A stretch of 64,000 bases of DNA, from positions 124,001 to 188,000 of the forward strand of contig NZ_JADKYP010000005.1 in the NCBI RefSeq assembly GCF_015354405.1, written 5' to 3'. Position 1 is the stretch's first letter, and every line of letters starts with the position of its first letter. The notes beneath the pieces are model-generated. The model ran no database searches. It was given only the letters and a program-made list of their open reading frames with translations, and was not told where the DNA came from. This document shows, piece by piece, positions 44,497 to 64,000 of the stretch. Origin of the DNA: Nocardia sp. BSTN01. GTDB lineage: Bacteria > Actinomycetota > Actinomycetes > Mycobacteriales > Mycobacteriaceae. A program made the position numbers and the translations under genes.

Positions 44497-44504
44497 AGTA
44501 GCAG

Positions 44505-46506: not shown

Positions 46507-46733
46507 CGCTTCTCCTTACGAGATCTTCCGGCTGAGACTTGCGTCCCGGCGAGATGTGGCCACGATGGTGGTGCGGTTAGATCCTGTTGCTCGGCTGTTA
46601 CTTACAGCATCGGGTTCAGACCTGCTGTGAAGGGTACTCGGACACACCGACAGTCGTCCCGTACATGTCGTGCTTGACCATCTCCCATCTTGCGCCTGCC
46701 CTGCACCCAGTCGGCAACCTGCTCGAAGCGTTG

Positions 46734-47805: not shown

Positions 47806-48188
47806 GCTCGTTGTGCTCCTTCGGGAGTGAATCCGCCTGGCAGCACAGGGAATTCGGCGTTGAATGTGACCTGGTAACGGTCGATGCGGCCGGCCGCGTC
47901 GAAGTGCATGGCGGCGACGAAGTATCCGGTGGTCACCGTGCCGTTCTCGATGACCGCACCGTGCGCGAACTGCATGTCACCGTCGGCGGCCACCCGCAGC
48001 ACCCGATGCTTGCGGTCGACATCGGGCCTACCGCCCAGATACTCCAGCATGGCGGCGCGGCCCCTGCCCGTTCGTACTCCGGACGGCAGCACCATGACGA
48101 ACTCGACGTCCTCGGCGAGCAGGTCCACGGCGTCGCCGAGCTTGCCGGAGTCGACGACGGCGTAGTAGTCCTCGATCGGATAATTCAT
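47802..48188 (-). CDS. NTF2/SnoaL-like protein
   Basis: 128 residues from the ATG at 48188. PIEDYYAVVDSGKLGDAVDL and AMLEYLGGRPDVDRKHRVLR mark the NTF2-like fold; FDAAGRIDRYQVTFNAEF is the last strand pair. It precedes and overlaps the other NTF2-like gene. Its start is 5 bp from the TGAACTTAGTTCA palindrome, and the acyl-CoA dehydrogenase gene diverges from it across 91 bp. Confidence 0.75.
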   Translation of the reverse strand: MNYPIEDYYAVVDSGKLGDAVDLLAEDVEFVMVLPSGVRTGRGRAAMLEYLGGRPDVDRKHRVLRVAADGDMQFAHGAVIENGTVTTGYFVAAMHFDAAGRIDRYQVTFNAEFPVLPGGFTPEGAQRA

Positions 48189-48279: not shown

Positions 48280-49425
48280 ATGTCCGCATCGCAGGTCAAC
48301 GTAGGTGAAGTCCGCTGGCCACATTCCGAACCGGCCGGATTCATCCCCGGCCCCGAGCAGTCCGCCCTGCGCGAGTCTCTCCGGGCGTTGCTGCTCAAAT
48401 GGGGTGATATCGCCCAGGTCCGCCAGGCCTCGTCCACCGAACGTGGATTCTCGGCATCGCTGTGGCGGGCCCTCGTCGACGACATGTCGGTCACCGCACT
48501 TGCCGCATCCGAGGATCGCGGCGGGCTGGGATACGGGGTGGCCGAACTGGCGACGATTCTCGAGGAGTGCGGGCGCGCGCTGGTCTGCGAACCGGTCTAC
48601 AGCTCCGCCGTGCTGGGCGTACAGGCCCTGCTCCTGACCCGCCCCGGCGACGACGATCTCCTGCTGGCGGGCGTATTGGCCGGTGATCTCCTGGCCACCG
48701 TCAGCGCCCTCGATACCACCACCGACGATCTGCGCGCGGTCCGGACGTCGGCCGGATGGGTCGTCGACGGCACGGTCACTCACCTGGTGTGCGGTGGAAC
48801 CGCCGACATGATCGTCGCGTCGGCGCACTGCCCGGATGGACGCCGCCTGTTCGCCGTGCGTCCGGGTGAGGACTGTGTGCGAACCGAGCGAGTGGTCCTG
48901 GACCCCACCCGCCGGCAGGCGGACGTGGCGCTACGGGCCGCTCCGGCGGTCGTCCTCACCGCGCCGGAGGGTACCGCCACCGCGGCCACCCGCTTGCGTG
49001 ATCTCGCCACACTCGCCCTCGCCAGCGAAAACACCGGCATCATCGACATGCTGCTCGAGACGACCGTGTCCTACGTCTCGACTCGCCGCCAATTCGATCG
49101 GGCCATCGGCTCCTTCCAGGCCGTCAAACATCGCCTCGCCGATCTGCTGGTCCTGCTCGAGCGCGCGCGATCCGCGTCCCGCTATGCGGCCGCGGCCTAC
49201 GCCGAGGACCCGGACGCGGCACGGCTGGCGGTCGCCGTTGCGGGTGCGGTCTGCACCGACGCGGCTGTCCAGACTGCGGCCGAGGCGGTCCAACTGTACG
49301 GCGGGATCGGCTTCACCTGGGAGCATCCGGCTCACTCCTATTTCCGCCGGGTCATGGGAAATGAAGCGGCACAAGGCGGTTCCCGAGCTCACCGCGGCAC
49401 GATAGCCGGCCTCGTCGGATTGTGA
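48280..49425 (+). CDS. Acyl-CoA dehydrogenase
   Basis: 381 residues, starting at an ATG with TGGAGA upstream. The N-terminal helical domain has VTALAASEDRGGLGYGVAEL; the middle domain is shortened and lacks the TEP motif, resembling the smaller partner subunit of heteromeric actinobacterial FadEs. The C-terminal domain has TRRQFDRAIGSFQAVKHRLA and QLYGGIGFTWEHPAHSYFRR. It is likely the partner of the dehydrogenase at 51905. Heteromer formation is inferred from sterol-degrading relatives. Confidence 0.85.
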   Translation: MSASQVNVGEVRWPHSEPAGFIPGPEQSALRESLRALLLKWGDIAQVRQASSTERGFSASLWRALVDDMSVTALAASEDRGGLGYGVAELATILEECGRALVCEPVYSSAVLGVQALLLTRPGDDDLLLAGVLAGDLLATVSALDTTTDDLRAVRTSAGWVVDGTVTHLVCGGTADMIVASAHCPDGRRLFAVRPGEDCVRTERVVLDPTRRQADVALRAAPAVVLTAPEGTATAATRLRDLATLALASENTGIIDMLLETTVSYVSTRRQFDRAIGSFQAVKHRLADLLVLLERARSASRYAAAAYAEDPDAARLAVAVAGAVCTDAAVQTAAEAVQLYGGIGFTWEHPAHSYFRRVMGNEAAQGGSRAHRGTIAGLVGL

Positions 49426-49514: not shown

Positions 49515-50303
49515 ATGATCGACACCGACCACATCGTGCTCGAGAAGGACGGCGAGATTGCGCGGGTGTGGCTCAACCGCCCGCACGTCAAGAACGCCGT
49601 CACCGTCGAATTGCTGCACCGCCTCGACGAGATCATCGTCGAGGTCGACAACGACCCCAACCTCAAGGTCCTGGTCCTGCGCGGCCGGGGTAACACCTTC
49701 TGCTCGGGCTTCGACCTCAACGAACTGCGCGCGAACTACGTCGGCCAGACCAACGCGATGGATGTCGCGGTGCTCTCCGCGAAGGTCTGCGACCGGCTGT
49801 ACTCGATGAACACCCCATCGGTCGCGGTACTCGAGGGTTACGTCACCGCCGGCGGTTTCGAGCTGATGATCTCCTGCGATTTCGCCGTCGCGGCCGACGA
49901 CGCCAAGATCGGCGATTTCCACATCCGCCGGGCCCTGTTCGGCGGCGCGGGCCCGATCTACCGGCTGCCGCGCATGATCGGCATCCGCAAGACCAAGGAG
50001 CTGATGCTGACCGGCAAGCTGCTCAGCGGCCGGGAGGCCGCCGCGTTCGATCTCATCAACGCCTCCGCCCCTGCCGCCGAGCTCGACCAGCTGGTCGCCG
50101 ATTTCGTTGCCCCGCTGGCCGATAAGAGCCCGTTCGCGATGAAGCTCACCAAGATGACCATCGACCGAGGCTTGGACGCCGACATCCAGTCGCTGATGGT
50201 GATGGAGCACCTGGCCGTGGGCAACGCACTGCAGTCCGAGGACGCCGCCGAGGGCGTGACCGCCTTCCTGGAGAAGCGCGAACCGAAGTGGGTCGGTCGC
50301 TGA
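49515..50303 (+). CDS. Enoyl-CoA hydratase/isomerase-family protein
   Basis: 262 residues. Crotonase landmarks are FCSGFDL (62-68) and EGYVTAGGFELMISCD, whose Gly and Ala NH groups form the oxyanion hole. In the region that holds the first catalytic Glu of hydratases (PE motif) this protein has GDFHIRRALFGGAGP, with Phe-His instead, so water addition may be lost. It may be an isomerase, hydrolase or an enzyme of different acid-base chemistry. It begins the main operon, 47 bp before the DUF35 gene. Confidence 0.85.
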   Translation: MIDTDHIVLEKDGEIARVWLNRPHVKNAVTVELLHRLDEIIVEVDNDPNLKVLVLRGRGNTFCSGFDLNELRANYVGQTNAMDVAVLSAKVCDRLYSMNTPSVAVLEGYVTAGGFELMISCDFAVAADDAKIGDFHIRRALFGGAGPIYRLPRMIGIRKTKELMLTGKLLSGREAAAFDLINASAPAAELDQLVADFVAPLADKSPFAMKLTKMTIDRGLDADIQSLMVMEHLAVGNALQSEDAAEGVTAFLEKREPKWVGR

Positions 50304-50350: not shown

Positions 50351-50728
50351 ATGGGCGTTGCGGAGCTCCGCACACTCGAGGGCAGCCGGTGCACGACCTG
50401 CGGCACCGTCGCATTCCCGGCCGGCACGATGTGCGGACGGTGCGCCACCGCGACCGTGACGACGATTCCGCTCAGCGACCACGGCGTGGTCTGGGCCTAC
50501 ACCGTGCAACGGTTCGCGCCCAAGTCACCGCCCTATGTCGCTCCGGCCGAAGGGTTTTCACCGTTCGCGGTCGGATATGTCGAACTTCCGGAAGGCGTCA
50601 GGATCGAGGCGGTTCTGGACTGCACCGACTTCGCCGAACTGGATGGGGCACAGGTGCGGCTGGTCGCCGTCGCGCCGGTGCCCCGGTTCGCGACCCGCAC
50701 GTTCATTCAGGAAGGCAAGGCGCAGTGA
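50351..50728 (+). CDS. DUF35 zinc-ribbon/OB-fold acyl-CoA-associated protein
   Basis: 125 residues. The rubredoxin-like zinc ribbon uses Cys14, Cys17, Cys28 and Cys31 (CTTC, CGRC); the OB-fold follows with GVVWAYTVQRFAP and FAVGYVELPEGVRI. DUF35 proteins bind CoA thioesters beside a thiolase-like partner, as ChsH2-DUF35 does with Ltp2. Its stop overlaps the start of the thiolase-like gene at 50725 as GTGA. Confidence 0.9.
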   Translation: MGVAELRTLEGSRCTTCGTVAFPAGTMCGRCATATVTTIPLSDHGVVWAYTVQRFAPKSPPYVAPAEGFSPFAVGYVELPEGVRIEAVLDCTDFAELDGAQVRLVAVAPVPRFATRTFIQEGKAQ

Positions 50729-51876
50729 CACCATCGGTCTCGATCATCGGCACCGGGTTGTCCCGGTTCGGCAGGCAACCGGATCTCACCGGCAGGCAGC
50801 TCGCGGTCGTCGCTATCAACGCCGCGCTCGATGATGCCGGACTACGTTGGCAGGACATTCAATTGGCGTGCGGCGGCAGTGACAGCTCCGGTCTGGCCGA
50901 CACTCTCGTCGCCGAACTGGGCTGCACCGGGATACCGTTCACCAACGTCAAGAACGGCTGCGCGACCGGCGGTAGCGCACTGCTCGGGGCGGTCAACGCC
51001 GTCCGCTCCGGTACCGCCGAGATCGCGTTGGCCGTCGGGTTCGACAAGCATCCGCGCGGTGCGTTCGATCCGACGCCGGAGGAGTGGGGTCTTCCGCACG
51101 GGTACGGCGAGGCCGGGCTCATGGTCACCACGCAATTCTTCGGCGCGAAGATCAACCGGTACATGCGGTTGCACGGTATCTCGACCATGACGCTGGCCAA
51201 GGTCGCCGAGAAGGCTTACCGCAACGGCAGTCTCAACCCCAACGCCTGGCGGAGAGAACCGATGTCCGCGGCGGAGATCGCCGCGGCACCCATGGTGAAC
51301 GACCCGCTGACCAGGTTCATGTTCTGCTCACCCGGTACCGGTGCCGCCGCGGTGATCGTTGCGAGCGAATCGGTGACCCGCCGCCGCGTTGCACAGCCCA
51401 TCCGCTTGCGCGCGATCAGTCACCGCACCCGCCGGTTCGGCTCGTTCGAGGTGTTCAGCCCGGCCGTCCTGGGCGGCGGCGAACCGGTCAGCGTGAGCTC
51501 CGACGCGGCGACCGCGGCATTCGAGGAGGCGGGCATCGGGCCCGCCGACATCGACGTCGCACAGCTGCAGGACACCGAGAGCGGTGCGGAAATCATGCAC
51601 ATGGCCGAATGCGGGTTCTGTGAACACGGCGAACAGGAGGCGATACTCGCCGCGGGCGACACCGAAATCGGTGGACGCCTGCCGGTCAACACCGATGGCG
51701 GCTGCATCGCCAACGGTGAGCCGATCGGCGCATCCGGCCTGCGCCAGGTCCACGAGATCATCACCCAGCTGCGCGGTGCCGCGGGCGCCCGGCAGGTTCC
51801 GGGATCGCCGCGGGTGGGGTTCACCCACGTCTACGGGGCGCCCGGGATCAGCGCCTGCACCGTGCTCTCGGTGTGA
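50725..51876 (+). CDS. Thiolase-like protein of the lipid-transfer (Ltp) group
   Basis: 383 residues from a GTG at 50725. The nucleophile region is VKNGCATGGSAL with Cys79. The region usually GHP in thiolases is NGEPIGASGLRQVHEI, where the active His is Glu, and the C-terminal CxG is GISACTV. This profile fits Ltp-type thiolases or aldolases (SCP-x relatives) rather than acetoacetyl-CoA thiolases. With the overlapping DUF35 gene it could carry out a retro-aldol or thiolytic side-chain step. Confidence 0.85.
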   Translation: MTPSVSIIGTGLSRFGRQPDLTGRQLAVVAINAALDDAGLRWQDIQLACGGSDSSGLADTLVAELGCTGIPFTNVKNGCATGGSALLGAVNAVRSGTAEIALAVGFDKHPRGAFDPTPEEWGLPHGYGEAGLMVTTQFFGAKINRYMRLHGISTMTLAKVAEKAYRNGSLNPNAWRREPMSAAEIAAAPMVNDPLTRFMFCSPGTGAAAVIVASESVTRRRVAQPIRLRAISHRTRRFGSFEVFSPAVLGGGEPVSVSSDAATAAFEEAGIGPADIDVAQLQDTESGAEIMHMAECGFCEHGEQEAILAAGDTEIGGRLPVNTDGGCIANGEPIGASGLRQVHEIITQLRGAAGARQVPGSPRVGFTHVYGAPGISACTVLSV

Positions 51877-51904: not shown

Positions 51905-53113
51905 GTGACCGAACCTTCAATTCCCGATTTGGCCCAGTTCGTCGAACAAGCCACATCCTGGCTCGCCGGTATGGCCTCACCCCGCACCGAGAGTCCCTGG
52001 GGTAGTGGATCCGATTCGGTCGCGGTCTTCGAAAACTGGACCGAAGCACAGGAGCGGGCCGAGACCGACCGCGTGCGTGCCTACGAACGCGCCAAATTCG
52101 ACGCCGGCTGGGGTGCGCTGAACTGGCCGCGCGCCTACGGCGGCCGCGAGCTCCCACTGTCGTACGTGCTCGCCTTCCGGCGCGCCGAGGAGGGCTTCGA
52201 CCTGCCGAGGCGCACCGAAATGTTCTCGGTGACACAGCAATTGGTGGCGCCGACGATCGACCAGTGGGGCACCGAGGAGCAGCGGGAGCGATATGTCCGG
52301 GCGATGCTCCGCACCGATGTCATCGCCTGCCAGCTCTTCTCCGAGACCGAGGCGGGTTCGGATCTGGCCGCCGTGCGGACCCGCGCGGTCCGCACCGACG
52401 ACGGCGGCTGGATTCTCAACGGGCACAAGGTGTGGACCTCCGGCGCCCGGATCGCCGACATCGGCATCGCGGTGTGCCGGACCGATCCGGCCGGCGCCAA
52501 ACATGCCGGTCTGACCGTATTCCTGGTACCGATGCACGCTCCCGGCGTCACCGTACGCCCGATCCGGCAGATGACCGGGGGAAGTTCCTTCAACGAGGTC
52601 TACCTCGACAACGTCCGCCTCGACGACGGCGACCGGCTCGGGCCCGTCGGCAAAGGCTGGCAGGTCGCGCTGACGGTACTGGCGGCCGAGCGCCTGGACG
52701 GCGCCAACCTGGGCCTGGCCAATGCCGATCGCGCGATCGCGCTGGCCGGGAATCTGGATCGTGGTCTGACCGAACTCGAACGCGACCGAGTGGCCGACCT
52801 GGTGACCCGCGGGTATGTGCAGCGTGTTGCCGCCATGCGGGTCGCCGCGGCGGTGGTGGCCGGGCGCGACCCAGGCCCCGAGGCATCGATCGGGAAGCTG
52901 CTTGCCACCGACACGATGGCCCGGACCTCCGAGGTCGTGCGGCTGCTGCTCGGCCGCGACCTAACCGCCGACTCCGGCGCGTGGGGCACCTTCGCGTGGA
53001 CCGAACATGTGCTCGGGGCGCCCGGATACCGGATAGCCGGTGGCACCGACGAGATTCAGCACAACATCATCGCCGAGCGAGTACTCGGCCTGCCCAAGGA
53101 GCCGCGCCCATGA
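51905..53113 (+). CDS. Acyl-CoA dehydrogenase
   Basis: 402 residues from a GTG at 51905 behind GAGAAGAG. The family markers are CQLFSETEAGSDLAAVRTRA, WILNGHKVWTSGARIADI and, near the C-terminus, APGYRIAGGTDEIQHNIIAE. It resembles larger FadE subunits of sterol-degrading actinobacteria and may work with the dehydrogenase at 48280. It overlaps the kinase gene at 53110 (ATGA). Confidence 0.9.
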   Translation: MTEPSIPDLAQFVEQATSWLAGMASPRTESPWGSGSDSVAVFENWTEAQERAETDRVRAYERAKFDAGWGALNWPRAYGGRELPLSYVLAFRRAEEGFDLPRRTEMFSVTQQLVAPTIDQWGTEEQRERYVRAMLRTDVIACQLFSETEAGSDLAAVRTRAVRTDDGGWILNGHKVWTSGARIADIGIAVCRTDPAGAKHAGLTVFLVPMHAPGVTVRPIRQMTGGSSFNEVYLDNVRLDDGDRLGPVGKGWQVALTVLAAERLDGANLGLANADRAIALAGNLDRGLTELERDRVADLVTRGYVQRVAAMRVAAAVVAGRDPGPEASIGKLLATDTMARTSEVVRLLLGRDLTADSGAWGTFAWTEHVLGAPGYRIAGGTDEIQHNIIAERVLGLPKEPRP

Positions 53114-54060
53114 GCCCGACACTGGAACAGCGGGTCGCGGCGCGACTGCACACCGATCTCGGCGTGCGACTCACGTCTTTCGAACGGCTGCCCGGTGGCC
53201 ATTCCGGCCTGACCTTCCGGGTGGAAACCACCGGCGAACCGTATGTCGTCAAGGCCGTGCCGGAGGGCAGCAGGCCGATCGGCCGCCACGACATGCTGCG
53301 CCAAGCCCGCATCATGCAGCTACTCGCGCAGACACCGGTGCCGGTGCCACGTATCGCGGTGGTGGACAGCGACGAACCCGCCTGGTTCGCCATGGAACTC
53401 GTCGCCGGTGAGTCGCTGGAGCCGGTGCTCGACGATCCCGCGGTCGCACCGGAGCTGGCCGCGGCCCGGATGCGCCGTGCCGCGCGGCTGCTGCCCGCGC
53501 TCCACGCGGTGGACGCGGCCGGTATTTCCGCGCCCGCGCTCACACCGGCCGAGGAACTCGCTCGCTGGGCGCGCACTCTCGGCGCCGTGCCACCCGAACT
53601 GGTCGCCGGTGGTGACCGGCTGCTGGCTTCCCTCGAACGCCGAATCCCCGAGCCGATCACGCCGGGGCTCGTGCACGGCGACTATCGCCTGGGCAACATC
53701 ATCTCCGCCGGGTCGGAACCGATAGCTCTGATCGACTGGGAGATCTGGAGCATGGGTGATCCGCGTGTGGAACTCGGCTGGTTCCATGTCTTCGCGGACG
53801 GCAGCAATTTCCCCGGTGTCGGCCGGCAGGTGCCCGGTTTGCCCAGCGCGGCGGAACTGCTCGACATCTACTGCGGGGGCGGGCCCTCGCTCGCCGAGCA
53901 AACCTGGTTCGACGCGCTGGGCCGGCTCAAGATGGCCGCGATCATGGGCCACAACCTGCGCCGGCATCGCGAAGGCCGGCATCACGATCCGGACCAGGAA
54001 AAACTGCCCGCCACCATCACTCGCCTCATCGAGACCGGAACCGCGCTACTCGCCGGTTGA
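53110..54060 (+). CDS. APH-like kinase, ACAD10/11 kinase-domain type
   Basis: 316 residues from the ATG at 53110. Lys48 (YVVKAVPEG) in the N-lobe, GGHSGLTFRVE as the nucleotide loop, and the catalytic loop VHGDYRLGNII (His189-Gly-Asp191, Asn196) with LIDWEIW (Asp209) are intact. In human ACAD11 and in the Pseudomonas lva system a kinase of this family phosphorylates a 4-hydroxyacyl-CoA before elimination. Here it sits 29 bp upstream of an ACAD11-type dehydrogenase, the order seen in those fused proteins. The substrate is inferred. Confidence 0.8.
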   Translation: MSPTLEQRVAARLHTDLGVRLTSFERLPGGHSGLTFRVETTGEPYVVKAVPEGSRPIGRHDMLRQARIMQLLAQTPVPVPRIAVVDSDEPAWFAMELVAGESLEPVLDDPAVAPELAAARMRRAARLLPALHAVDAAGISAPALTPAEELARWARTLGAVPPELVAGGDRLLASLERRIPEPITPGLVHGDYRLGNIISAGSEPIALIDWEIWSMGDPRVELGWFHVFADGSNFPGVGRQVPGLPSAAELLDIYCGGGPSLAEQTWFDALGRLKMAAIMGHNLRRHREGRHHDPDQEKLPATITRLIETGTALLAG

Positions 54061-54089
54061 CCCTCGCCCTTCCGCCCAGGAGCCGCACT

Positions 54090-55292
54090 GTGGACTTTTC
54101 CTACTCCGCCCGCACCCAGGATCTGCTCGTCGAACTCGAAGACTTCATGACCGGCCACGTGTATCCGGCCGAGCCGGTGTACGACGCGCAGATCGCCGCC
54201 GCCGCCAACCCGCATGAGCAGCCGCAGATCATGCGGGATCTGCAGGCCGAGGCCCGGCGTAGGGGGTTGTGGAACCTGTTCATGACCCACGACGGCTTGG
54301 GCGCCGGACTCACCAACCTCGAGTACGCGCCGCTGGCCGAGGTGGCCGGCCGGTCGGTGATCGGCAACGAGGCGATCAACTGCTCGGCGCCGGATACCGG
54401 CAACATGGAGATCCTGGCCATGTTCGGCACCGAACAGCAGAAGCAGCAATGGCTGAAACCCTTGCTGGACTGCAGTATTCGCTCCGCCTTCGCGATGACC
54501 GAGCCCGCGGTGGCCAGCTCGGACGCCACCAACATCACCTCGACGATTCGCCGCGACGGTGATGAGTACGTCCTCAACGGGCGCAAGTGGTACACCTCCG
54601 GAGTTCTCGATCCGGATTGCAAGCTGATCATCTTCATGGGCAAATCCGATCCCGCGGCGAAGACCTACCGCCAGCAGAGCATGATCCTCGTGCCCGCCGA
54701 CGCCCCCGGCATCGAGGTACTGCGCGATCTGCCGATGTTCGGCTTCCACGATCGCCTCGGTCACGGCGAGGTCCAGTTCACCGACGTCCGGGTCCCCGCG
54801 GCGAACATGCTCGGCGCCGAAGGCGACGGTTTCGCCATCGCGCAGGGCCGGCTCGGGCCCGGGCGGATGCATTACGCGATGCGCGCCATCGGCATGGCCG
54901 AACGGGCCCTGGAGTTGATGTGCCGCAGGGCGTTGGAGCGCACCGCGTTCGGTGGTCCGCTCGCCGATCGCGGGGTGGTCCGCGAGTGGATCGCGCGCAG
55001 CCGCATCGAGATCGATCAGATCCGGCTGCTGGTACTGCAGTCGTCCTGGCTGATGGACACCCAGGGCAACGCCGCGGTGCGCTCACAGGTCGCGGCGATC
55101 AAGGTCGCGGCGATGGAGGTGGCACACACCGTCGTCGATCGCGCCGTGCAGACCTTCGGCGCTGCCGGAGTCAGCAACGACACCGTCCTGGCCCGGATGT
55201 ACGCCATCACCCGGGCACTGCAGATCGCCGACGGTCCCAATGAGGTGCACCTGCGCACAATCGCTCGTCTCGAGGTGGAGAACTACCGATGA
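54090..55292 (+). CDS. Acyl-CoA dehydrogenase, ACAD11 type
   Basis: 400 residues from a GTG at 54090 behind CAGGAG. The sequence follows the ACAD domain of human ACAD11: FAMTEPAVASSDATNI (134-149), YVLNGRKWYTSGVLDPDCK, GRLGPGRMHYAMRAIGMAER, and MYAITRALQIADGPNEVHL at the end. In ACAD11 this domain eliminates phosphate from 4-phosphoacyl-CoA to make enoyl-CoA rather than dehydrogenating. It is preceded by the APH-like kinase and overlaps the SDR gene by 4 bp. Confidence 0.88.
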   Translation: MDFSYSARTQDLLVELEDFMTGHVYPAEPVYDAQIAAAANPHEQPQIMRDLQAEARRRGLWNLFMTHDGLGAGLTNLEYAPLAEVAGRSVIGNEAINCSAPDTGNMEILAMFGTEQQKQQWLKPLLDCSIRSAFAMTEPAVASSDATNITSTIRRDGDEYVLNGRKWYTSGVLDPDCKLIIFMGKSDPAAKTYRQQSMILVPADAPGIEVLRDLPMFGFHDRLGHGEVQFTDVRVPAANMLGAEGDGFAIAQGRLGPGRMHYAMRAIGMAERALELMCRRALERTAFGGPLADRGVVREWIARSRIEIDQIRLLVLQSSWLMDTQGNAAVRSQVAAIKVAAMEVAHTVVDRAVQTFGAAGVSNDTVLARMYAITRALQIADGPNEVHLRTIARLEVENYR

Positions 55293-56047
55293 ACACATCT
55301 GATCTGACCGGCAGGGTCGCACTGGTCACCGGCGCCAGCCGAGGGCTCGGCCTGGCCATCGCCAGGGGCTTGCGCGATGCGGGCGCCACGGTGATAGTGT
55401 CGAGCCGAAAGTTCTCCGCTTGTGCGGAAGCGGTTGCGGCACTGGGTGATTCCCCTGTCGGCAGCGCCCACCCGCTGGAACTGCATGTCGGCAAGTGGGA
55501 TGGCATCGAGCCGGCCCTCGACGGGATCATCGCGGAGTTCGGGCGCCTGGACATCGTCGTCAACAATGCCGGCATCGCACCGGTGGCCGACGATCTCACG
55601 TCCGTGACGGAAGCGCTGTGGGACAAGACCATCGAGGTCAATCTGAAGGGGCCGTTCCGGCTGATGGCCCTGGCCGGAGCCCGGATGGCCGCCGCCGGTG
55701 GTGGATCGATCATCAACATCTCCAGCATCGGGGCCCTGCGACCGAGCCCGCCGGAAACGATGTACGCCGCCGCGAAGAGCGGCCTCAACGCGTTGACCCT
55801 GGCCTTCGCCCAGGCGTACGCGCCCGCCGTGCGGGTGAACTGCGTCCTGCCGGGCGGATTCGCGACCGATATGGCCGAGCACTGGGACGACGAGTTCATC
55901 TCGAAGATCGTCGATCGGCTGCCGGCGGGACGGCTGGGCAGGCCGGAGGAGATCGCCGGGCTCGTCACCCATTTGGCAGGTGACGCGGCGAGTTACACCA
56001 CCGGCACGGTCATTCCGGTCGACGGTGGCCGGACCGCGGTGTACTGA
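55289..56047 (+). CDS. Short-chain dehydrogenase
   Basis: 252 residues with TGASRGLG (Rossmann turn), NNAG, ISSIG Ser and MYAAAKSG Tyr-Lys, and VIPVDGGRTAVY at the end. Overlap with the ACAD11-type gene suggests it reduces or oxidises an intermediate of the same path, perhaps the 3-hydroxyacyl-CoA, as LvaD does in levulinate breakdown. That analogy is inference. Confidence 0.87.
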   Translation: MNTSDLTGRVALVTGASRGLGLAIARGLRDAGATVIVSSRKFSACAEAVAALGDSPVGSAHPLELHVGKWDGIEPALDGIIAEFGRLDIVVNNAGIAPVADDLTSVTEALWDKTIEVNLKGPFRLMALAGARMAAAGGGSIINISSIGALRPSPPETMYAAAKSGLNALTLAFAQAYAPAVRVNCVLPGGFATDMAEHWDDEFISKIVDRLPAGRLGRPEEIAGLVTHLAGDAASYTTGTVIPVDGGRTAVY

Positions 56048-56057
56048 GGCGGATGCT

Positions 56058-56843
56058 GTGCTGACCGACGATACGACTACCGATACCCTCACCCGGCTGT
56101 TCGGCCTGCGCGGCCGGACCGCCGTTGTCACCGGCGCCTCGTCCGGCCTCGGCCTCGGATTCGCCAAGACGCTCGCCGGTGCCGGGGCCACAGTGTTCGC
56201 CGTGGCCCGCCGCACCGACCGGCTGACCGCCCTGGCCGAGCGTGACCCGGGCATCGTCCCGGTCCGTTGCGATGTGACCCTCGACGAGGACCGCCGGGCG
56301 TTGGTCGAACGCTGTTACGAACAGACCGGCCGCCTGGACGTGCTGGTCAACAATGCGGGCATGGCCGGTCCTCCGCACGCGGAGCAGGAATCGGCCTCGG
56401 GTTTCGCGGCCCTGCTCGAACTGAATCTGATCGCCGGATTCCATCTCGCCCTCGCCGCGGCCACCGCGCTGCCGGAGGGGCGCGGCGCGTCGATCATCAA
56501 CATCTCCTCGATCATCGGGCTGGCCTCGACCGCGCCGATCGGCGGGGCGAGCTATGCCGCCTCCAAGGCGGGGGTTCTCGGCCTGACCCGTGAACTCGCC
56601 GGTCAGTGGGGTTCTCGCGGGATTCGCGTCAATGCGGTCGTGCCCGGGTGGTTCGATACCGAGATGACCGACGGGCTGTTCAGTAACGACAAGTCGGCCG
56701 GCTGGGTGCGACGCAACACGATGCTCGGCCGGGGCGGTTCCGCCGGAGAGGTCGACGGCGCCGTGCTGTTCCTGGCCTCGGCGGCGTCGTCGTATATGAC
56801 CGGCCAGACGGTGGTGGTCGACGGCGGATGGACGGCCCGCTGA
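56058..56843 (+). CDS. Short-chain dehydrogenase
   Basis: 261 residues from a GTG at 56058 (GAGG over the previous stop). Motifs are TGASSGLGLG, NNAGMAG, ISSIIG and SYAASKAGVLGL, ending TVVVDGGWTAR. All catalytic residues are present. It is 10 bp from the preceding SDR and overlaps the MDR start by one base. Confidence 0.85.
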   Translation: MLTDDTTTDTLTRLFGLRGRTAVVTGASSGLGLGFAKTLAGAGATVFAVARRTDRLTALAERDPGIVPVRCDVTLDEDRRALVERCYEQTGRLDVLVNNAGMAGPPHAEQESASGFAALLELNLIAGFHLALAAATALPEGRGASIINISSIIGLASTAPIGGASYAASKAGVLGLTRELAGQWGSRGIRVNAVVPGWFDTEMTDGLFSNDKSAGWVRRNTMLGRGGSAGEVDGAVLFLASAASSYMTGQTVVVDGGWTAR

Positions 56844-57895
56844 TGTTGGCAGTACAGCTGACCGAATGGGGCAGGCCTCCGGTGCTGCGGCACGTGCCGG
56901 CACCGGAGCCCGTCGGCGAGGAGCTTGTCCTGCAGGTCACCGCGGCCGGACTGTGCCGATCCGATCTGCATGTCATGGACTCGGCGGCGGCGAGTTTCGA
57001 CTGCCCGTTGCCCCTCACGCTCGGCCATGAGGTCGCCGGCACGGTGCTCATGGCCGGACCGGACGCCGATCCGGGATGGCTGGGCGAAACCGTTGTGGTG
57101 CACGGCATCTGGAGTTGCGGCCACTGCCGCAACTGTGCGCGGGGCAGGGAGAACTACTGCCTGCGGCTGCGGCCGCGCGCGACCGGCGCGCCGGCGCCCA
57201 TCGGCAACGGCCTCGGATATCACGGTGGCCTGGCCCAGGCGATACTGGTCCCGTCTGCCCGGCATCTCGTCCGCACCGACGGTCTGGATCCGATCGTGGC
57301 CGCACCACTGACCGACGCAGGCCTGACCGCCTATCACGCGGTTCACGAACACGCCGACCTGATCGATGCGCACGCGACCTGTGTGGTGATCGGAGTCGGC
57401 GGCCTCGGCCACCTCGGCGTGCAGATTCTCCGCGATATGGGCGCCGGTCGGATTCTCGCCGTCGACAACCGGGCGGACGCCCGTGAGATGGCCGTGCGCT
57501 TGGGCGCGGAAGCGGCGTACCACGATGTGGACTCGCTGCGTGCGGCGGTGACCGACGGTGCGGATGTGATCATCGATTTCGCGGGCGCACCGGATACGGC
57601 GCAGCCCGCGACGCGCCTGCTCGCGCCGGGCGGCCGCCTGACGGTGGTGGGCAGCGCGGGCGCACTGATCGAGGTCGGCAAGACCGTCGGCCTCGCCGCG
57701 GGCTGGCGGGTCACCGCACCATTCTGGGGTCCGCGCGCGGACCTGGTCGCGGTGATCGACATGGCGCGACGCGGCGCCCTGCAGGTGGCGGCCACCCCCT
57801 ACCCACTGGCCGAGGGGGCCGAGATCTACCGGCGTCTGCGCGCCGGCGACATCACCGGACGCGCCGTGCTGATTCCGCCACCGTTGCAGCGCTGA
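56843..57895 (+). CDS. Zinc-dependent medium-chain alcohol dehydrogenase
   Basis: 350 residues from the ATG at 56843 in a TGATG overlap; an in-frame ATG at 56828 is an alternative. Catalytic zinc ligands are Cys38 (GLCRSD) and His62-Glu63 (LGHEVAG); the structural zinc has Cys92, Cys95, Cys98 and Cys106. GVGGLGHLGVQILRDMG binds NAD. It probably oxidises a secondary or primary alcohol intermediate. Confidence 0.87.
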   Translation: MLAVQLTEWGRPPVLRHVPAPEPVGEELVLQVTAAGLCRSDLHVMDSAAASFDCPLPLTLGHEVAGTVLMAGPDADPGWLGETVVVHGIWSCGHCRNCARGRENYCLRLRPRATGAPAPIGNGLGYHGGLAQAILVPSARHLVRTDGLDPIVAAPLTDAGLTAYHAVHEHADLIDAHATCVVIGVGGLGHLGVQILRDMGAGRILAVDNRADAREMAVRLGAEAAYHDVDSLRAAVTDGADVIIDFAGAPDTAQPATRLLAPGGRLTVVGSAGALIEVGKTVGLAAGWRVTAPFWGPRADLVAVIDMARRGALQVAATPYPLAEGAEIYRRLRAGDITGRAVLIPPPLQR

Positions 57896-57943
57896 ACGGC
57901 AAGTACGCAGCGAAGAACCGACAGTCACACGAGGGAACAGACG

Positions 57944-59455
57944 ATGAAGATACTCGCGAAGGAAATGCTCGAACGGGCAGAGCGCAGCCCGGATCGGATC
58001 GCGGTGGTCGACGAGTTCGGCGAGCATACCCTCGGTGAGATCATCGCGGCGGCTTCGACGCTGGCGGCCCGCATCGAGGCGACCGATCCGGGCGCCCCGA
58101 CCGTCCTGGTCCAGGCGGGCAACACCTGGCACACCGTGGCCGCCGCGCTCGCGGTCGGGATGCGGGGAGGCGTCGTCGCGGTGCTGAGCCCGCACGCCGC
58201 CGACTCGGAGTTCCGGCTCGCTGTCGCGGATATCGCGCCGGATCTGGTGTTCGCCGAACCCGGAACACTGGATCGGTGGGAGGTGCCCGCAGCCTTTTCG
58301 ATCCGGCAGCCCGCTTTCGCGGGTCGAGTGGTGTGCGCCCGGCCGGGGCCGTTCGGCCCGGTGGAACGCTGGCGCGGCGGGACGGCCATCGCGATGACGT
58401 CGGGATCCACCGGTCGGCCGAAATGTGTCGTGCAGTCCGAGGAGGCGATCCGCTATGCCTGCGCGCGCACGATCGATGTCGTGGGCATACAGCCGGGCGA
58501 AGCCGTCGGAGCGTTCGTTCCGCTCTCATCGGTGGCCGCGTTCTGCTTCGGCATGTATCTGCCCGCTTACCTGGGCGGGGTCATGGTGACGATCGACAAG
58601 TGGTCCCCGGCCGCCGCGTTGACCGCGATGGCGGACCATCGCGTCGCCTGGACGATGCTGGTCCCGACAATGGCCCTGCAATTGTCGCTCGTCGACGATG
58701 CCCCGGGCGTGCCGGTTCTGCGAGCGATCACCGTCGGCGGTGGTCCGATGAACGAGAGTGCCATGGCCGCGGCGGAGAACCGCCTCGGCACAACCTTCCT
58801 ACGGGTGTTCGGCATGTCCGAATGCCTCGGCCACACCACGCCGCGGCCGGATGACCCGCCCGCGATCCGCCTCGGCCGGGACGGACGCCCGTTCGAGGGC
58901 ACCGTGGTCCGGGCCGTCGACGGCGCGGGTAACATCCTCGGGCCGGGCGAGGTCGGCGACGCTCAGGTGAAGGGACCGTCACTGTTCGTGGGGTATGCCA
59001 GGGACGGGGTGCCGGTACCGCCCGAACTCACCCCCGACGGGTTCCTGCCCACCGGAGATCTGGTCGAGGTGGCCGGTGACGGTTCGATCCGCGTGCTCGG
59101 ACGGCAGAAGCAGATCATCATCCGCGGCGGCCGCAACATCGATATCAACGAGGTGGAGGCGGCGATCGCGGGTCTGCCCGCGATCGTCCAGGTGTGTGTC
59201 GTCGCGGTACCCGATGATCTGCTGGGTGAGCGCGCGGCCGCGCTCGTCGTCACCGATGGTCCACCGCTGACGCTGGACAACGTCACCACCCAGCTCGCGG
59301 CGGCGGATGTGCCCAAGTTCAAGTGGCCGGAGTACCTGTTCACCGTGCAGGACCTGCCGCAGAACCGGGTCGGCAAACTGGACCGCCCGGAGGCGGTTCG
59401 CATGGCAACCCGCCTGGCCGTGGCTGTTGACCCGACTTCAGCTCAGGTACGGTAG
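57944..59455 (+). CDS. Acyl-CoA ligase (AMP-binding class I)
   Basis: 503 residues. The A3 motif MTSGSTGRPK is at 151-160; FGMSECLGHTT, TGDLVEV and the hinge RQKQIIIRGGRNIDINEVE follow. The catalytic Lys lies in QNRVGKLDR near the end. It activates a carboxylic acid with ATP and CoA, likely the entry step for the cluster's substrate. Its 3' end holds the last copy of the cluster motif (59434). Confidence 0.88.
   Translation: MKILAKEMLERAERSPDRIAVVDEFGEHTLGEIIAAASTLAARIEATDPGAPTVLVQAGNTWHTVAAALAVGMRGGVVAVLSPHAADSEFRLAVADIAPDLVFAEPGTLDRWEVPAAFSIRQPAFAGRVVCARPGPFGPVERWRGGTAIAMTSGSTGRPKCVVQSEEAIRYACARTIDVVGIQPGEAVGAFVPLSSVAAFCFGMYLPAYLGGVMVTIDKWSPAAALTAMADHRVAWTMLVPTMALQLSLVDDAPGVPVLRAITVGGGPMNESAMAAAENRLGTTFLRVFGMSECLGHTTPRPDDPPAIRLGRDGRPFEGTVVRAVDGAGNILGPGEVGDAQVKGPSLFVGYARDGVPVPPELTPDGFLPTGDLVEVAGDGSIRVLGRQKQIIIRGGRNIDINEVEAAIAGLPAIVQVCVVAVPDDLLGERAAALVVTDGPPLTLDNVTTQLAAADVPKFKWPEYLFTVQDLPQNRVGKLDRPEAVRMATRLAVAVDPTSAQVR
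59434..59444 (-). promoter_or_regulatory. Fourth copy of the cluster motif before the TetR gene
   Basis: On the minus strand it reads GAGCTGAAGTC, sharing CTGAAGT with the 49459 copy. It overlaps the end of the ligase gene and lies 55 bp before the TetR ATG, next to a TTGACC (59427-59432) and a TAGAGT (59453-59458) with 20-bp spacing. Confidence 0.4.
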
Positions 59456-59498: not shown

Positions 59499-60122
59499 AT
59501 GGTTATTGATACCGAAGTTCGCCGTGAGAGCGCCCGTTCGAAGCGTGGCCACATCCTCAGCACTGCCATCGAGAAATTCGGGCAGGTCGGCTACGAGCAG
59601 ACCAAATGGGCCTCCGTCGCCGACGAGGTCGGCATCGGCCAGACCGCGCTGTATCACTACTTCGAATCCAAGGCGCATTGCCTGCTGACGATCATGCGCC
59701 TCGAACTGGCGGATTCCGTCGAACGTTTCGCCGCTGCCACCGAGAATCAGGATGATCCCGAACAAGCCTTGCGCGCAGCGGTCGCCGCCGCCCTGGCCGG
59801 GACAGCGACCGACGCCCTGCAGCGGCGGATCCTGCAGAGCCATATGGATCTGCTCGTCGCGCCGCGCCAGTCCGAGAAGGAGGAGGCAGAACGGCTGCGC
59901 TCCCGCGAGCTCGTGCAGGAGATCGAACAGAACTGGTCCGGGTTGATCTCGCGTGGTATCGACGCCGGTGTGTTCGCCGAGGGCGACCCGCGCCTGCTCG
60001 GGCAGTTGATCCTCGGCATGATCGTCAGCATCTGGCGCTGGTACCGGCCCGACGGCGACCTCAGCCTGGCCGAGATCACCGAGACGATCAGCGCCGCGAC
60101 CGTCCGGCTCCTGGTCGAGTAG
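59499..60122 (+). CDS. TetR-family transcriptional regulator of the catabolic cluster
   Basis: 207 residues from the ATG at 59499. The HTH is ILSTAIEKFGQVGYEQTKWA and ADEVGIGQTALYHYFESKAH, close to FadR/KstR2-like actinobacterial repressors. The C-terminal ligand domain is full length. It follows the ligase gene by 43 bp but has its own promoter-like boxes. It is the best candidate to bind the GAnCTGAAsT sites, with an acyl-CoA as inducer. Confidence 0.87.
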   Translation: MVIDTEVRRESARSKRGHILSTAIEKFGQVGYEQTKWASVADEVGIGQTALYHYFESKAHCLLTIMRLELADSVERFAAATENQDDPEQALRAAVAAALAGTATDALQRRILQSHMDLLVAPRQSEKEEAERLRSRELVQEIEQNWSGLISRGIDAGVFAEGDPRLLGQLILGMIVSIWRWYRPDGDLSLAEITETISAATVRLLVE

Positions 60123-60190
60123 ATCCCGAGGCGCATCCGGACCGGTTCCGCTTGCCCGCAGAAACTAAACAGAATTCAATTAGGAGAATC

Positions 60191-60526
60191 GTGTACAACC
60201 TCTTGGTTCTGGCATCCCGCCCCCGCGACTGGTCGCATGAGCAGTTCATCGAGTGGTGGCGCGGCGGGCACGCCGAGGTCACCTATCCGCTGCCCGGATT
60301 GCTGCGCTGGCAGCACACCGATCTGCTCGAGTCGATGGACGAGAAGTCGGCGGGCTGGGACGGGCTGTCGATCCTGAGCTTCGAATCCCGCGAGGCGCTC
60401 GACGCCGCATTGGCGAGTCCGGAATGGGAGGCCGCGGTGCGGCACGTCGGCGCGATGCGGGGCAGGCGCATGATCTGGTTCGGCGACGAACGGACGATGG
60501 TGCCGCTCGCCGAGCCGGGCGCGTGA
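60191..60526 (+). CDS. EthD-like dimeric alpha/beta-barrel protein
   Basis: 111 residues from a GTG at 60191 behind TAGGAGAATC. The start YNLLVLASRPRDWSHEQFIE and WWRGGHAEVTYPLPGL match the EthD ferredoxin-like barrel, with SFESREALDAALASPEWE on the last helix. EthD proteins act in ring or terpenoid degradation, often as lyases or helpers. It is 68 bp after the TetR stop and overlaps the hydrolase start. Confidence 0.83.
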   Translation: MYNLLVLASRPRDWSHEQFIEWWRGGHAEVTYPLPGLLRWQHTDLLESMDEKSAGWDGLSILSFESREALDAALASPEWEAAVRHVGAMRGRRMIWFGDERTMVPLAEPGA

Positions 60527-61542
60527 GTAAGCACTGGGCGGAACCTGGGTGTTATCCGATAGCCGAAGGCATCCATCGCATTCCGCTGCAAATGCCACAG
60601 GACGGATTGCGCGCGGTCAATGTGTACGTCCTGGAAACCGGGGGCGGTCTCGCGCTGATCGATGGGGGCTGGCATCGGCCGGACACCTACCGCGAACTCG
60701 CCGCCGGCTTGGCGCGAATCGGCCGTTCCCCCGACGAGATTCACGATGTGTTCGTGACGCACGTGCATCGCGATCACTACACCTTCGCCGTCGAACTGCG
60801 TCGAAGGCACGGCTGCCGGGTACATCTGGGCGCCGGTGAATCCCCTGGCCTCGAGGCCGTCCGACGGCTCGGCACCAATGAGCCCCAGAACGCCCTGCAC
60901 GAGTTGCGCCGTGCGGGCGCAGGCGCTCTCGCCACCCGCGCCCGGGCCGGCAGCCTGGCCGAGTCCTTCGATCCGCACGACTGGGAACCCCCCGACCACT
61001 GGTTGCGGCCGGGCGACGTCGACCTGGCCGGGTATCGTCTGCACGCCCGGGCAACTCCCGGACATACCAAGGGCCACATGGTCTTCGAGGACCTCGATCG
61101 AAAACTGATGTTCACCGGCGATCATGTGCTGCCGACGATCACCCCCTCGATCGGTTTCGAGCTCGGCCCGTGGGAACTGCCGTTGGAGAACTTCTTGCGC
61201 TCGCTGACACTGCTGAGTGATGACGACACGCCCGTGATGCTGCCGGCCCACGGTATGCCCGGCGGGAGCGTCGGCCGGCGTGCGCGCGCACTCCTCGCGC
61301 ACCACGACGAGAGACTCGCCCAGACGGTCGCTGTCGTCGGTGAACTGGCGCCCTGCACGGGTTCGGCCGTGGCCCGGGCACTGACCTGGACGCGGCACGA
61401 CCGCAGCTTCGACACTCTGGGCACCTTCGATCAGATGTTCGCCACCTGCGAGACGCTCGCGCATCTCGACCTGCTGGTCGCTCGAAATGTATTGACCGCG
61501 AAGGACAACGACGGTGTGGACGTCTTCAGCACTGCCCGCTGA
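60523..61542 (+). CDS. Metallo-beta-lactamase-fold hydrolase
   Basis: 339 residues from a GTG at 60523. Metal ligands are in FVTHVHRDHYTF (His80, His82, Asp84, His85), ATPGHTKGHMVFED and FTGDHVLPTITPS, with a final PAHGMPGG. A C-terminal helical region (about 255-339) is typical of the larger MBL hydrolases. It may cleave a thioester, lactone or ester of the path. Its 3' end forms half of a 23-bp hairpin. Confidence 0.87.
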   Translation: MSKHWAEPGCYPIAEGIHRIPLQMPQDGLRAVNVYVLETGGGLALIDGGWHRPDTYRELAAGLARIGRSPDEIHDVFVTHVHRDHYTFAVELRRRHGCRVHLGAGESPGLEAVRRLGTNEPQNALHELRRAGAGALATRARAGSLAESFDPHDWEPPDHWLRPGDVDLAGYRLHARATPGHTKGHMVFEDLDRKLMFTGDHVLPTITPSIGFELGPWELPLENFLRSLTLLSDDDTPVMLPAHGMPGGSVGRRARALLAHHDERLAQTVAVVGELAPCTGSAVARALTWTRHDRSFDTLGTFDQMFATCETLAHLDLLVARNVLTAKDNDGVDVFSTAR

Positions 61543-61572: not shown

Positions 61573-62337
61573 TCAGGCGCAGGTCCACCCACCGTCGACA
61601 TACAGCTCGCTGCCGGTGATGAAGGTCGAATCGTCGCCGGCCAGGAATGCGACCGCCGCGGCGACCTCCTCGGCGCGGCCGAGCCGGCCCATAGGGGTGT
61701 GCTCGAGCATCGCCCGGTAGCGATCACTACCCTCGTATCGGTCGAGCAGCTGGCGGGTCTCGATGAATGCCGGGTGGATCGAATTGACCCGGACCCCCTT
61801 GGCGGCCCAGTACAAGGCCGCATTCTTGGTCATCGTCCGGACCGCACCCTTGGCCGCCGCATACGCCAGGCTGTTGCCCAGACCGCCCACGGTGCCCAGT
61901 ATCGAGCAGAGGTTGACTATCGATCCTCCGCCGGTGCGCTCGATGAGCGCACCGGCGTGCTTCATACCCAGCCAGGTACCGGTCTGGCTGATCGCGATCA
62001 CCTTGTTGTAGCGCTCCAGATCCTCGTCCACCACCGTCGCCAGGCTGCCGATGGCGCCGTTGGCGACGAGCACATCCAGGCGCGAGAAACGTTCGGCGAT
62101 CGCCTCGACCGCGGCGCGCCACTGCTGTTCATCGCCGATGTCCAGCTCGAGCACATGATGGCGTTCGGGATCCGGGATGTCCGCCGCCATCCGCGCACAC
62201 GCTTCGGCATCCAGATCCGTCAGGACGAGCACAGCGCCCTCGCCGGCCAGCCGCCGCGCGATCTCCACGCCGATCCCACCGGAGGATCCCGTCAACAGGA
62301 CCACTTTGTCGCGCAATCGCGCACGGCCGGCCGTCAT
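61573..62337 (-). CDS. Short-chain dehydrogenase
   Basis: 254 residues. It has LTGSSGGIG at the Rossmann turn, but the NNAG motif is replaced by ANGAIG; LCSILG and AYAAAKGAVRTM hold the Ser and the Tyr-Lys pair, and LYVDGGWTCA ends the protein. The gene lies on the minus strand with the ABC permease 40 bp upstream (its stop at 62378), so it may share that transport operon rather than the catabolic one. Confidence 0.85.
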   Translation of the reverse strand: MTAGRARLRDKVVLLTGSSGGIGVEIARRLAGEGAVLVLTDLDAEACARMAADIPDPERHHVLELDIGDEQQWRAAVEAIAERFSRLDVLVANGAIGSLATVVDEDLERYNKVIAISQTGTWLGMKHAGALIERTGGGSIVNLCSILGTVGGLGNSLAYAAAKGAVRTMTKNAALYWAAKGVRVNSIHPAFIETRQLLDRYEGSDRYRAMLEHTPMGRLGRAEEVAAAVAFLAGDDSTFITGSELYVDGGWTCA

Positions 62338-62377: not shown

Positions 62378-64000
62378 TCACAGATTGCTCAACACGTTCC
62401 GGCCGCCCACGAGCATCGCCGCCGCCACGCCCACGGTGGTGACCGCGGTCATGAGCAGCGCCATCGCGGCGACCAGTGGATAGGAGCCGTTCTGCCACAG
62501 ATCGAACAGCAGGGTTCCCATCACCTGGGTGGTCGATGCGCGCACCAGGAGTGAGGCGGCGAATTCGTGCGTGAGCAGGATGAACATCAGCGCGACGGCG
62601 CTGAGTACGGTCGGGCGCATCAGTGGGAGCATCACCCGGATGTTCGTGACCATCGGCGATGCTCCGCTGGTCGCCGACGCCTCGCTGTAGGTGTTACCGA
62701 GTGCGAGCAGCGCGGTCATCTGCATCCGGATCGCGTAGGGCAGCATCAGGACGATGTAGACCAGGATGATGACCGTGCGGGTTCCGTACAGGATCAGCGG
62801 CGGCTCGGTATAGGTCAGCAGGAATCCCACACCGAAGATCACCGCGGGAATTCCCATCGGCAGCACGGTGATGAGGTCGGCGATCACCGCGAGGACCCGG
62901 AATCGCTTGCCGCGCAACAGCAATGTGGCCACCGCGTAGCCGATGGGAATGCAGATGGCCACGGCGATCAGTGAGGTGACGACGCTGGTGACGACCGAGT
63001 CCACGATCGACTGGTTCGAGGCCAGACTCCGGAAATTCGCGAGCGTCAGGATGTCCGGGGACAGCGAGCCCGACCAATACGGCGTCAACGAGACGATCAC
63101 GAGCCCGAGCAGGGGGACGACCAGGGCCAACAGGGCGTAGATCAGCAGAGTCAGCGACGCCCAGGCGGAGCGACCCGGCGGCGCCGAGAAGGCCTTTCCG
63201 CCGTGGGTGACGAACCGGCTCTGGTTGCCCAGCAACCCCTTCTGGATCAGGACCACCGCGAGCCCGAACAGCACCAGGGGCGAACCCGCTGCCGCGGCTG
63301 CGGCGAAATCCGCCGGTGACTCCGAAACTCGGTGGTACATGTCGGTGGTCAGAACCTGCACACCCTTGTTCTGCCCGAGCAGCAGCGGCCCGGTGAACTG
63401 GCCCAGGCCCAGCAGCAGGGCGATGCCGCCGCCGTAGACCAACGACGGGCGCAGCAGCGGAAGCACGACCCGGAAGAACACCCCCACCGTCGAGGACCCG
63501 TTGATCTGGGCTGCTTCGAGATGTTCGGAATTGATGCTCTGCATGCCGGCGCTGACGAACAGGTAGACGAACGAGGTCAGACTGAAACCGGTGAGGATGA
63601 CGATCCAGGGCACCGTGTAGACGTCGACCGGTCCGGTATCCGAACCGCTCCACCAGGGCAGGTGACGCAGCAGCACATTCAGATATCCCGGTCCGGGGGA
63701 CAGCAGGAATGTCCAGCCGACGATATTGGCGACCGCGGGCATCACGATCGGCAGGATCGGGATGATACGCAGGAACGAGAGGCGGGCCGGGAGCCGGCTC
63801 GCGGCGAAGGCGAGCAGGGTTCCGAGCAGCATGGCGATCACCAGCGATCCGACGGCCAGCACGATCGTGGTCCGAATCGTTTCGCCGATGTCGTAGCGGC
63901 CGTACTGACTTCGGTAGCCCTGCGCTCCGTTCTCGAACGCCAGTGCCTGCAATCGGATCATCGGCACGACGACGAGATAGGCGAGAACCGCGAGCAGGAC
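62378..64000 (-). CDS. Two-domain ABC transporter permease (partial, N-terminus outside window)
   Basis: At least 540 residues run to the window edge with no start in view. Two permease halves of six helices are present, each with an EAA-like coupling loop: NSEHLEAAQINGSSTVGVFF in the first and SEASATSGASPMVTNIRVML in the second. This is the layout of iron(III)- and spermidine/putrescine-type importers with fused permeases (FbpB-like). An ATPase and binding protein should lie beyond 64000. The solute is unknown. Confidence 0.85.
   Translation of the reverse strand, partial: VLLAVLAYLVVVPMIRLQALAFENGAQGYRSQYGRYDIGETIRTTIVLAVGSLVIAMLLGTLLAFAASRLPARLSFLRIIPILPIVMPAVANIVGWTFLLSPGPGYLNVLLRHLPWWSGSDTGPVDVYTVPWIVILTGFSLTSFVYLFVSAGMQSINSEHLEAAQINGSSTVGVFFRVVLPLLRPSLVYGGGIALLLGLGQFTGPLLLGQNKGVQVLTTDMYHRVSESPADFAAAAAAGSPLVLFGLAVVLIQKGLLGNQSRFVTHGGKAFSAPPGRSAWASLTLLIYALLALVVPLLGLVIVSLTPYWSGSLSPDILTLANFRSLASNQSIVDSVVTSVVTSLIAVAICIPIGYAVATLLLRGKRFRVLAVIADLITVLPMGIPAVIFGVGFLLTYTEPPLILYGTRTVIILVYIVLMLPYAIRMQMTALLALGNTYSEASATSGASPMVTNIRVMLPLMRPTVLSAVALMFILLTHEFAASLLVRASTTQVMGTLLFDLWQNGSYPLVAAMALLMTAVTTVGVAAAMLVGGRNVLSNL

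Follow-up and report, generated by a model that had tools for sequence, protein, structure and literature searches.

The chemistry described for ACAD10 and ACAD11 combines a 4-hydroxyacyl-CoA kinase with a phosphate-eliminating acyl-CoA dehydrogenase (ACAD) (PMC12440821, PMC11342911). Does a pair of adjacent kinase and ACAD genes in an actinobacterium serve the same chemistry, and on which type of substrate? This question is raised by a 64,000-nucleotide stretch of Nocardia sp. BSTN01 (contig NZ_JADKYP010000005.1, positions 124,001 to 188,000), hereafter called the window, which is part of a 238-kb contig in a genome of 7.8 Mb. In the window, the gene of an APH-fold kinase (Kin) directly precedes that of an ACAD (AcdC). 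The initial annotation took them for a split ACAD10/11-like pair in an lva-like operon, acting by phosphorylation and subsequent elimination. Our analysis makes it fairly probable that the pair is a re-paired, active-site-altered form of such a phosphorylate-then-eliminate module, in a catabolic cluster for an acid with a hydroxyl group or a reducible ketone at C4. New here are the recurrence of eight genes around the pair, a Tyr residue fixed at the place of His634 of ACAD11, and the position of Kin on another kinase branch. Our literature search, limited for subscription journals, recognised no publication on this cluster or on Tyr-type ACAD10/11 enzymes.

AcdC falls within the ACAD11 clade

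Among solved structures, the best matches of AcdC are 4hr3, an ACAD (428 bits), and mouse ACAD11 (417 bits), with ordinary ACADs scoring at most 138 bits. AcdC and mouse ACAD11 are 49% identical over 402 aligned residues (E value of 6e-124, compared with 2.7e-39 for the top-scoring solved ACAD that is not an ACAD11-type match), and the segment MTEPAVASSDATN, on which, together with the C-terminus, the initial annotation had based this relationship, is present. In a 48-row tree, AcdC and 13 orthologues lie within a 30-row clade that holds mouse ACAD11, with a support of 100/100. This tree was built under a plain LG+G4 model from chosen rows, including 13 of the 37 distinct AcdC orthologues, and its outgroup, AcdB, is a long branch. 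A grouping of AcdC away from ACAD11 had been named beforehand as the outcome that would speak against the proposal; as AcdC is inside the clade, the tree gave the opposite. We also considered a grouping with 'type II' ACADs, approximately 40% identical to AcdC, which belong to kinase-ACAD pairs found in Nocardia, Streptomyces and elsewhere. Forced placement of AcdC among them was rejected (approximately unbiased test, p-AU 1.5e-80, LG+G4). Unlike AcdC, the type II enzymes form a separate clade with an HHAMR motif. By its clade, AcdC is thus an enzyme of the ACAD11 kind.

A tyrosine at the place of the HCMR histidine

The key residues reported for mouse ACAD11 are R626, H634, R637 and D753, the latter being the catalytic base. 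Ala or Leu substitutions at the first three were the most disruptive, and the His of the HCMR motif was called essential (PMC12440821). No substitution of H634 by Tyr is named in the part of that paper available to us. When RLGPGRIHHCMR is aligned with RLGPGRMHYAMR, Arg254, Tyr262 and Arg265 of AcdC occupy the places of R626, H634 and R637, and Asp381 that of D753. As YAMR replaces HCMR, we regard AcdC as a variant rather than a plain member of the ACAD10/11-LvaC family, which probably works like the rest of the family.

The Tyr is found in the window and in all 37 distinct orthologues retrieved (at least 70% identity to AcdC), including the most distant one seen, on a Streptomyces plasmid (71% identity). 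In contrast, His occupies this position in 32/32 sequences at 45-70% identity to AcdC. At 34-45% identity, it is present in 23 of 25 sequences, the remaining two having an Asn and an unreadable residue. Further sets at 45% identity or more, which partly overlap with each other and with the preceding two, have His in 68/68 and 59/59 sequences. Tyr-type AcdC proteins are also encoded in all 22 short loci (L009-L030) that surround close orthologues of Kin within the family, partly from the same genomes. According to these alignments, AcdC represents an ACAD10/11-LvaC sub-clade with a fixed His-to-Tyr exchange in the predicted phosphate pocket.

With one of three phosphate ligands lost, AcdC might have reverted to ordinary acyl-CoA dehydrogenation, while Kin would have a different target, such as a free hydroxy acid; many APH-fold enzymes do act on other small molecules. 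We consider this scenario improbable, because the Asp that serves as the catalytic base in ACAD11 is kept, and because Kin and AcdC are adjacent in all 17 loci described below.

Kin groups with a different kinase branch

As first annotated, Kin has intact HGD and Asp motifs (HGDYRLGN and DWE, with D191, N196 and D209 kept), and it matches the Pfam APH family (Table 1). It harbours Lys48 in strand beta-3 and Gln65 in helix alpha-C, where kinases beside His-type ACADs have Arg and Glu. The latter combination is found in 43/43 such kinases, i.e., matches of at least 90 residues among 135 partly overlapping loci with a His-type ACAD (at least 45% identity). Gln alone is not unique to the Kin branch, since the distant second kinases of two loci, L093 and L106, associate Arg with Gln.

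In a 42-row tree, Kin is placed among Lys/Gln kinases, split with 100/100 support from the group holding the ACAD11 kinase domain. This tree was made of chosen rows under plain LG+G4, without L118 (match cut by the locus end), L053 (broken frame) and Pseudomonas putida LvaA, and its canonical group comprises only three or four rows beside His-type ACADs (L086, L087, L089 and the fused ACAD11). Type II kinases share the Lys/Gln branch with Kin; neither its nesting among them nor a sister position is favoured (p-AU 0.186). Of 18 loci with Lys/Gln kinases (L054, L056-L072), 16 yielded an ACAD with 36-43% identity to AcdC. With Kin on a branch whose loci hold such ACADs, Kin and AcdC seem to have separate ancestries and to have been re-paired. 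As a caveat, LvaA itself may lie far from the ACAD11 kinase, given that the kinase domains of ACAD10/11 are reported to be only 29% identical to LvaA (PMC11342911).

The fixed His-to-Tyr exchange and the different kinase branch together suggest that the substrate to which Kin and AcdC are adapted is probably bulkier, branched or cyclic. The initial description as an ACAD10/11-like pair therefore holds for the clade, the catalytic Asp, the two Arg and the catalytic residues of the kinase, but neither for the His nor for the kinase branch. Of separate note, a distant ACAD (L064:8703-9893), encoded in the vicinity of a Lys/Gln kinase, has an Asn in place of His634.

Eight genes recur together in actinobacteria

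Comparative genomics of kinase-ACAD neighbours had been proposed with the initial annotation. Our scan of genome contigs covered the best 80 of 486 kinase relatives, corresponding to 79 loci, and we selected 17 named loci only by the presence of a close kinase orthologue (63-91% identity). They belong to Nocardia, Williamsia, Gordonia, Rhodococcus, Aeromicrobium, Dietzia, Allosalinactinospora and Nocardioides. The genes DUF35-Thl-AcdB-Kin-AcdC-Sdr1-Sdr2-Lig are all found in 17/17 loci, with identity cut-offs for gene presence that were set after the locus comparison had been seen. As the loci were picked solely for their kinase, the recurrence of these eight genes exceeds chance. AcdC follows Kin in each locus, with a gap of 23-53 bp between match ends in 16/17; in L053 the kinase frame is broken. 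A divergent pair of SnoaL-like genes travels with the operon in 11 of the loci, and the frequencies of the other genes are given in Table 1.

Among the best 80 of 486 relatives, the closest named ones of Kin are from Nocardia albiluteola (91%) and N. miyunensis (89%). In the window's family, a kinase match at 1e-40 is found in 32/201 genomes, with at least 64% identity in the own genome and 22 others and at most 41% in the remaining nine. At the phylum level, 136/396 genomes have an ACAD match at 1e-100; besides the own genome, one congener reaches 89%, and the next match 63%. In the order of the gammaproteobacterial L079 genome, the corresponding figure is 70/145 genomes at 1e-110, none above 59%. 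Matches at 1e-90 are present in 123 plasmid records, with more than 60% identity in three, and a Rhodococcus qingshengii plasmid carries a similar extended gene set in a different order. The cluster is thus conserved but patchy in actinobacteria, and it has probably been moved horizontally, as its spread and the plasmid copies suggest.

The genome of Nocardia sp. BSTN01 has six further sites with a kinase and an ACAD gene within approximately 1 kb of each other, and in two of them the ACADs are of the His type (59% and 51% identity to AcdC). That His-type pairs are kept in the same genome suggests a separate substrate or job for the window pair. The latter might even be repurposed, with Kin phosphorylating another position or a ring and AcdC catalysing a different elimination or an isomerisation in which the Tyr is an acid/base. 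The partition between Tyr in the orthologues and His at 45-70% identity, the retention of His-type pairs and the distinct branch of Kin would all agree with such a change. Nevertheless, AcdC retains the catalytic Asp as well as the two arginines that contact the phosphate, in keeping with a leaving group that has not changed, and we hold repurposing to be rather unlikely, albeit the most credible of the alternatives considered.

A number of points weigh against a phosphorylate-then-eliminate module. H634, among the most substitution-sensitive residues of ACAD11, is a Tyr in AcdC, and the HCMR His is lost in every orthologue retrieved. Kin has a Gln at the usual place of the alpha-C Glu and groups apart from the ACAD11 kinase. 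Short-chain dehydrogenases (SDRs) similar to Sdr1 adjoin many different kinase-ACAD pairs and therefore say little about the substrate, and the Sdr1 place is occupied by a match of only 35% in the most distant cluster (L124, on the Streptomyces plasmid). On the other side, the surrounding genes fit acyl-CoA breakdown, in agreement with that part of the mechanism first put forward. Sdr1 was also tried as a marker of kinase origin and dropped, because SDRs similar to it (up to 53% over a short stretch) are present beside Arg/Glu-type kinases as well.

Other arrangements were encountered in the course of these comparisons. In L053, L055 and L124, a second, more distant kinase-ACAD pair is found nearby (about 30% and 35%), with THCMR rather than YAMR in both ACADs read. 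A Bosea plasmid (L163) groups a kinase, a ligase, a DUF35/thiolase pair and a His-type ACAD, and so the link between kinase-ACAD and thiolase/DUF35 genes is not unique to actinobacteria. An ACAD10/11-type gene (56-59% identity to AcdC) is present in 25/25 genomes of one Pseudomonas-like genus (L165, L166, L198-L220), with no kinase match within approximately 1.5 kb on either side; it may be an orphan ACAD10/11 that lacks a kinase next to it. A LysR-like gene, as judged by eye, adjoins it in L165 and L166.

Gene content and proposed pathway

From AcdA to Mbl, the genes are tightly packed on the forward strand (Table 1). The AcdB and Kin genes share 4 bp, and the gap between the Kin stop codon and the GTG start of AcdC is 29 bp, as initially noted. 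The neighbours listed in the initial annotation are present as well: two SDRs, a zinc-type medium-chain dehydrogenase/reductase and an adenylate-forming ligase downstream, a thiolase/DUF35 pair and two more ACADs upstream, to which a crotonase can be added, and an EthD-like protein that scores above its model's cut-off. The SnoaL-like genes are upstream and divergent from the operon, and Sdr3 and an ATP-binding cassette (ABC) permease are downstream on the reverse strand. Beyond the right edge of the window, the cluster continues on the same contig with genes for the ABC importer ATPase, a solute-binding protein and an SDR, and then with those for two flavoproteins, one of the old yellow enzyme (OYE)/FadH type and one of the flavocytochrome/KstD type, with an SDR between them. 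All of these proteins score far under the curated cut-offs of their nearest models.

Table 1. Genes of the Kin-AcdC cluster in the window; fractions give the number of the 17 named loci with a homologue.
Product	Coordinates	Strand	Remarks
SnoaL-like (NTF2-fold) protein	47392..47805	-	Pfam SnoaL_2 weak, 19.1 bits (cut-off 27); 11/17
Second SnoaL-like protein	47802..48188	-	Pfam SnoaL_2 36.7 bits; 11/17
AcdA, small-subunit-type acyl-CoA dehydrogenase	48280..49425	+	Nearest model IpdE2, far under cut-off; 14/17
Ech, crotonase-fold enoyl-CoA hydratase	49515..50303	+	Pfam ECH_1 155 bits; 81-95% identity, 16/17
DUF35/ChsH2-type OB-fold partner of thiolase	50351..50728	+	17/17
Thl, SCP2/Ltp-type thiolase-fold protein	50725..51876	+	GTG start 50725; 17/17
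AcdB, large-subunit-type acyl-CoA dehydrogenase	51905..53113	+	Nearest model PimC, far under cut-off; 17/17
Kin, APH-fold kinase, Lys48/Gln65	53110..54060	+	316 aa; Pfam APH 102 bits; 17/17
AcdC, ACAD10/11-clade dehydrogenase, Tyr262 at HCMR His place	54090..55292	+	Arg254, Arg265, Asp381 kept; 17/17
Sdr1, short-chain dehydrogenase	55289..56047	+	17/17
Sdr2, short-chain dehydrogenase	56058..56843	+	17/17
Mdr, zinc-type alcohol dehydrogenase	56843..57895	+	Start 56843 or 56828; 15/17
Lig, adenylate-forming acyl-CoA ligase	57944..59455	+	17/17
TetR-family regulator	59499..60122	+	ATG at 59499; 16/17
EthD-family protein	60152..60526	+	TIGR02118 33.7 bits (cut-off 30.5); 15/17; start probably slightly downstream
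Mbl, metallo-beta-lactamase-fold hydrolase	60523..61542	+	16/17
Sdr3, short-chain dehydrogenase	61573..62337	-	14/17
ABC importer permease	62378..64000	-	Extends to 64075, past the right edge; followed by genes for ATPase, SDR and solute-binding protein

From the gene content, conservation, clade placement and residue states observed, we infer a set of reactions, their order and a type of substrate. Lig would make the acyl-CoA from a carboxylic acid, and an SDR may generate the 4-hydroxyl from a ketone in the manner of LvaD, the reductase described as converting levulinyl-CoA to 4-hydroxyvaleryl-CoA (PMC6692424). Kin would then phosphorylate the 4-hydroxyl at the expense of ATP, and AcdC would eliminate the phosphate to yield a 2-enoyl-CoA, using FAD without net redox change. 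Ech, the SDRs, AcdA/AcdB and Thl/DUF35 would subsequently shorten the chain by hydration, oxidation and cleavage. The last step is perhaps of the retro-aldol type, and Thl with DUF35 may be comparable to Ltp2-type aldolases. The Cys motif of Thl is kept in 17/17 loci, the GHP-type His is replaced by Glu in 17/17 and the HDAF-type His by Gln in 16/17, with one unread.

The most likely substrate in our scheme is a branched or cyclic 4-hydroxyacyl-CoA. The two additional ACADs and a Thl with its Cys motif kept but with Gln and Glu at the usual His positions point tentatively in the same direction, and perhaps to the retro-aldol-type cleavage. We attempted to name the substrate from the neighbouring genes, but the importer, OYE-type, KstD-type and metallo-beta-lactamase genes fit several compound classes, none of which is preferred. 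More tentatively, the cluster might encode an actinobacterial pathway not described before, by which an imported gamma-hydroxy acid (or gamma-lactone or gamma-keto acid) of cyclic or branched structure is degraded. In this pathway, a Tyr would replace the His that binds or protonates the leaving phosphate, and the kinase would have been recruited from another branch.

Directly left of the cluster, a large AAA ATPase gene (44584-46506) encodes a protein resembling Old/AriA/GajA-type defence proteins (best score 73 bits). It is perhaps a recent insertion; the GC content of the stretch holding it, 44001-48000, is lower, at 0.57.

Comparison with known systems

Mammalian ACAD10/ACAD11 share with AcdC the clade, the catalytic Asp, the two phosphate arginines and an APH-fold kinase partner. 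However, mammalian ACAD11 is one fused protein with the HCMR His, whereas the Nocardia system consists of two genes, with a Tyr and with a kinase of the other branch.

The lva operon of Pseudomonas putida (LvaA kinase, LvaB, LvaC ACAD, LvaD SDR, LvaE ligase) is similar in that two genes encode the kinase and the ACAD, with SDR and ligase genes nearby, and to this extent the initial 'lva-like' label is apt. Could the cluster be a plain levulinate operon? All four gene types are there, but relative to the published description of lva, a TetR regulator stands in place of LvaR, which is reported to be sigma-54-dependent (PMC6692424). There is no gene at the LvaB place, in the 29-bp gap between Kin and AcdC, and no search for LvaB elsewhere was made; a P. 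citronellolis lva cluster without lvaB has nevertheless been reported (PMC6692424). The Nocardia cluster also has many extra genes, notably the two ACADs, thiolase/DUF35, the OYE-type and flavocytochrome/KstD-type flavoproteins and the ABC importer, all of which make a levulinate operon very improbable. Our search for LvaA/LvaC through Pseudomonadota genomes yielded neither of them, but different kinase-ACAD pairs and orphan ACADs.

Similar ACAD and thiolase/DUF35 families are also found in actinobacterial steroid-type modules (IpdE2/PimC-type ACADs, Ltp/ChsH2-type thiolase-DUF35), but the NCBIfam scores of the cluster's proteins are far under the curated cut-offs. We know of no kinase-ACAD pair in steroid-type pathways of actinobacteria.

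Significance

ACAD10/11 chemistry is recent, and the precise mechanism of the redox-neutral loss of phosphate on the flavin is described as still unclear (PMC12440821). A natural sub-clade with a Tyr, in all members retrieved, at a position described as essential offers a ready comparison for what the His does, and the named organisms that carry the cluster are places to seek a new 4-hydroxy acid pathway. On the more tentative reading given above, with a Tyr taking the role of the His and a kinase recruited from another branch, the pathway would represent a second natural solution to the dephosphorylative dehydration of hydroxyacyl-CoAs.

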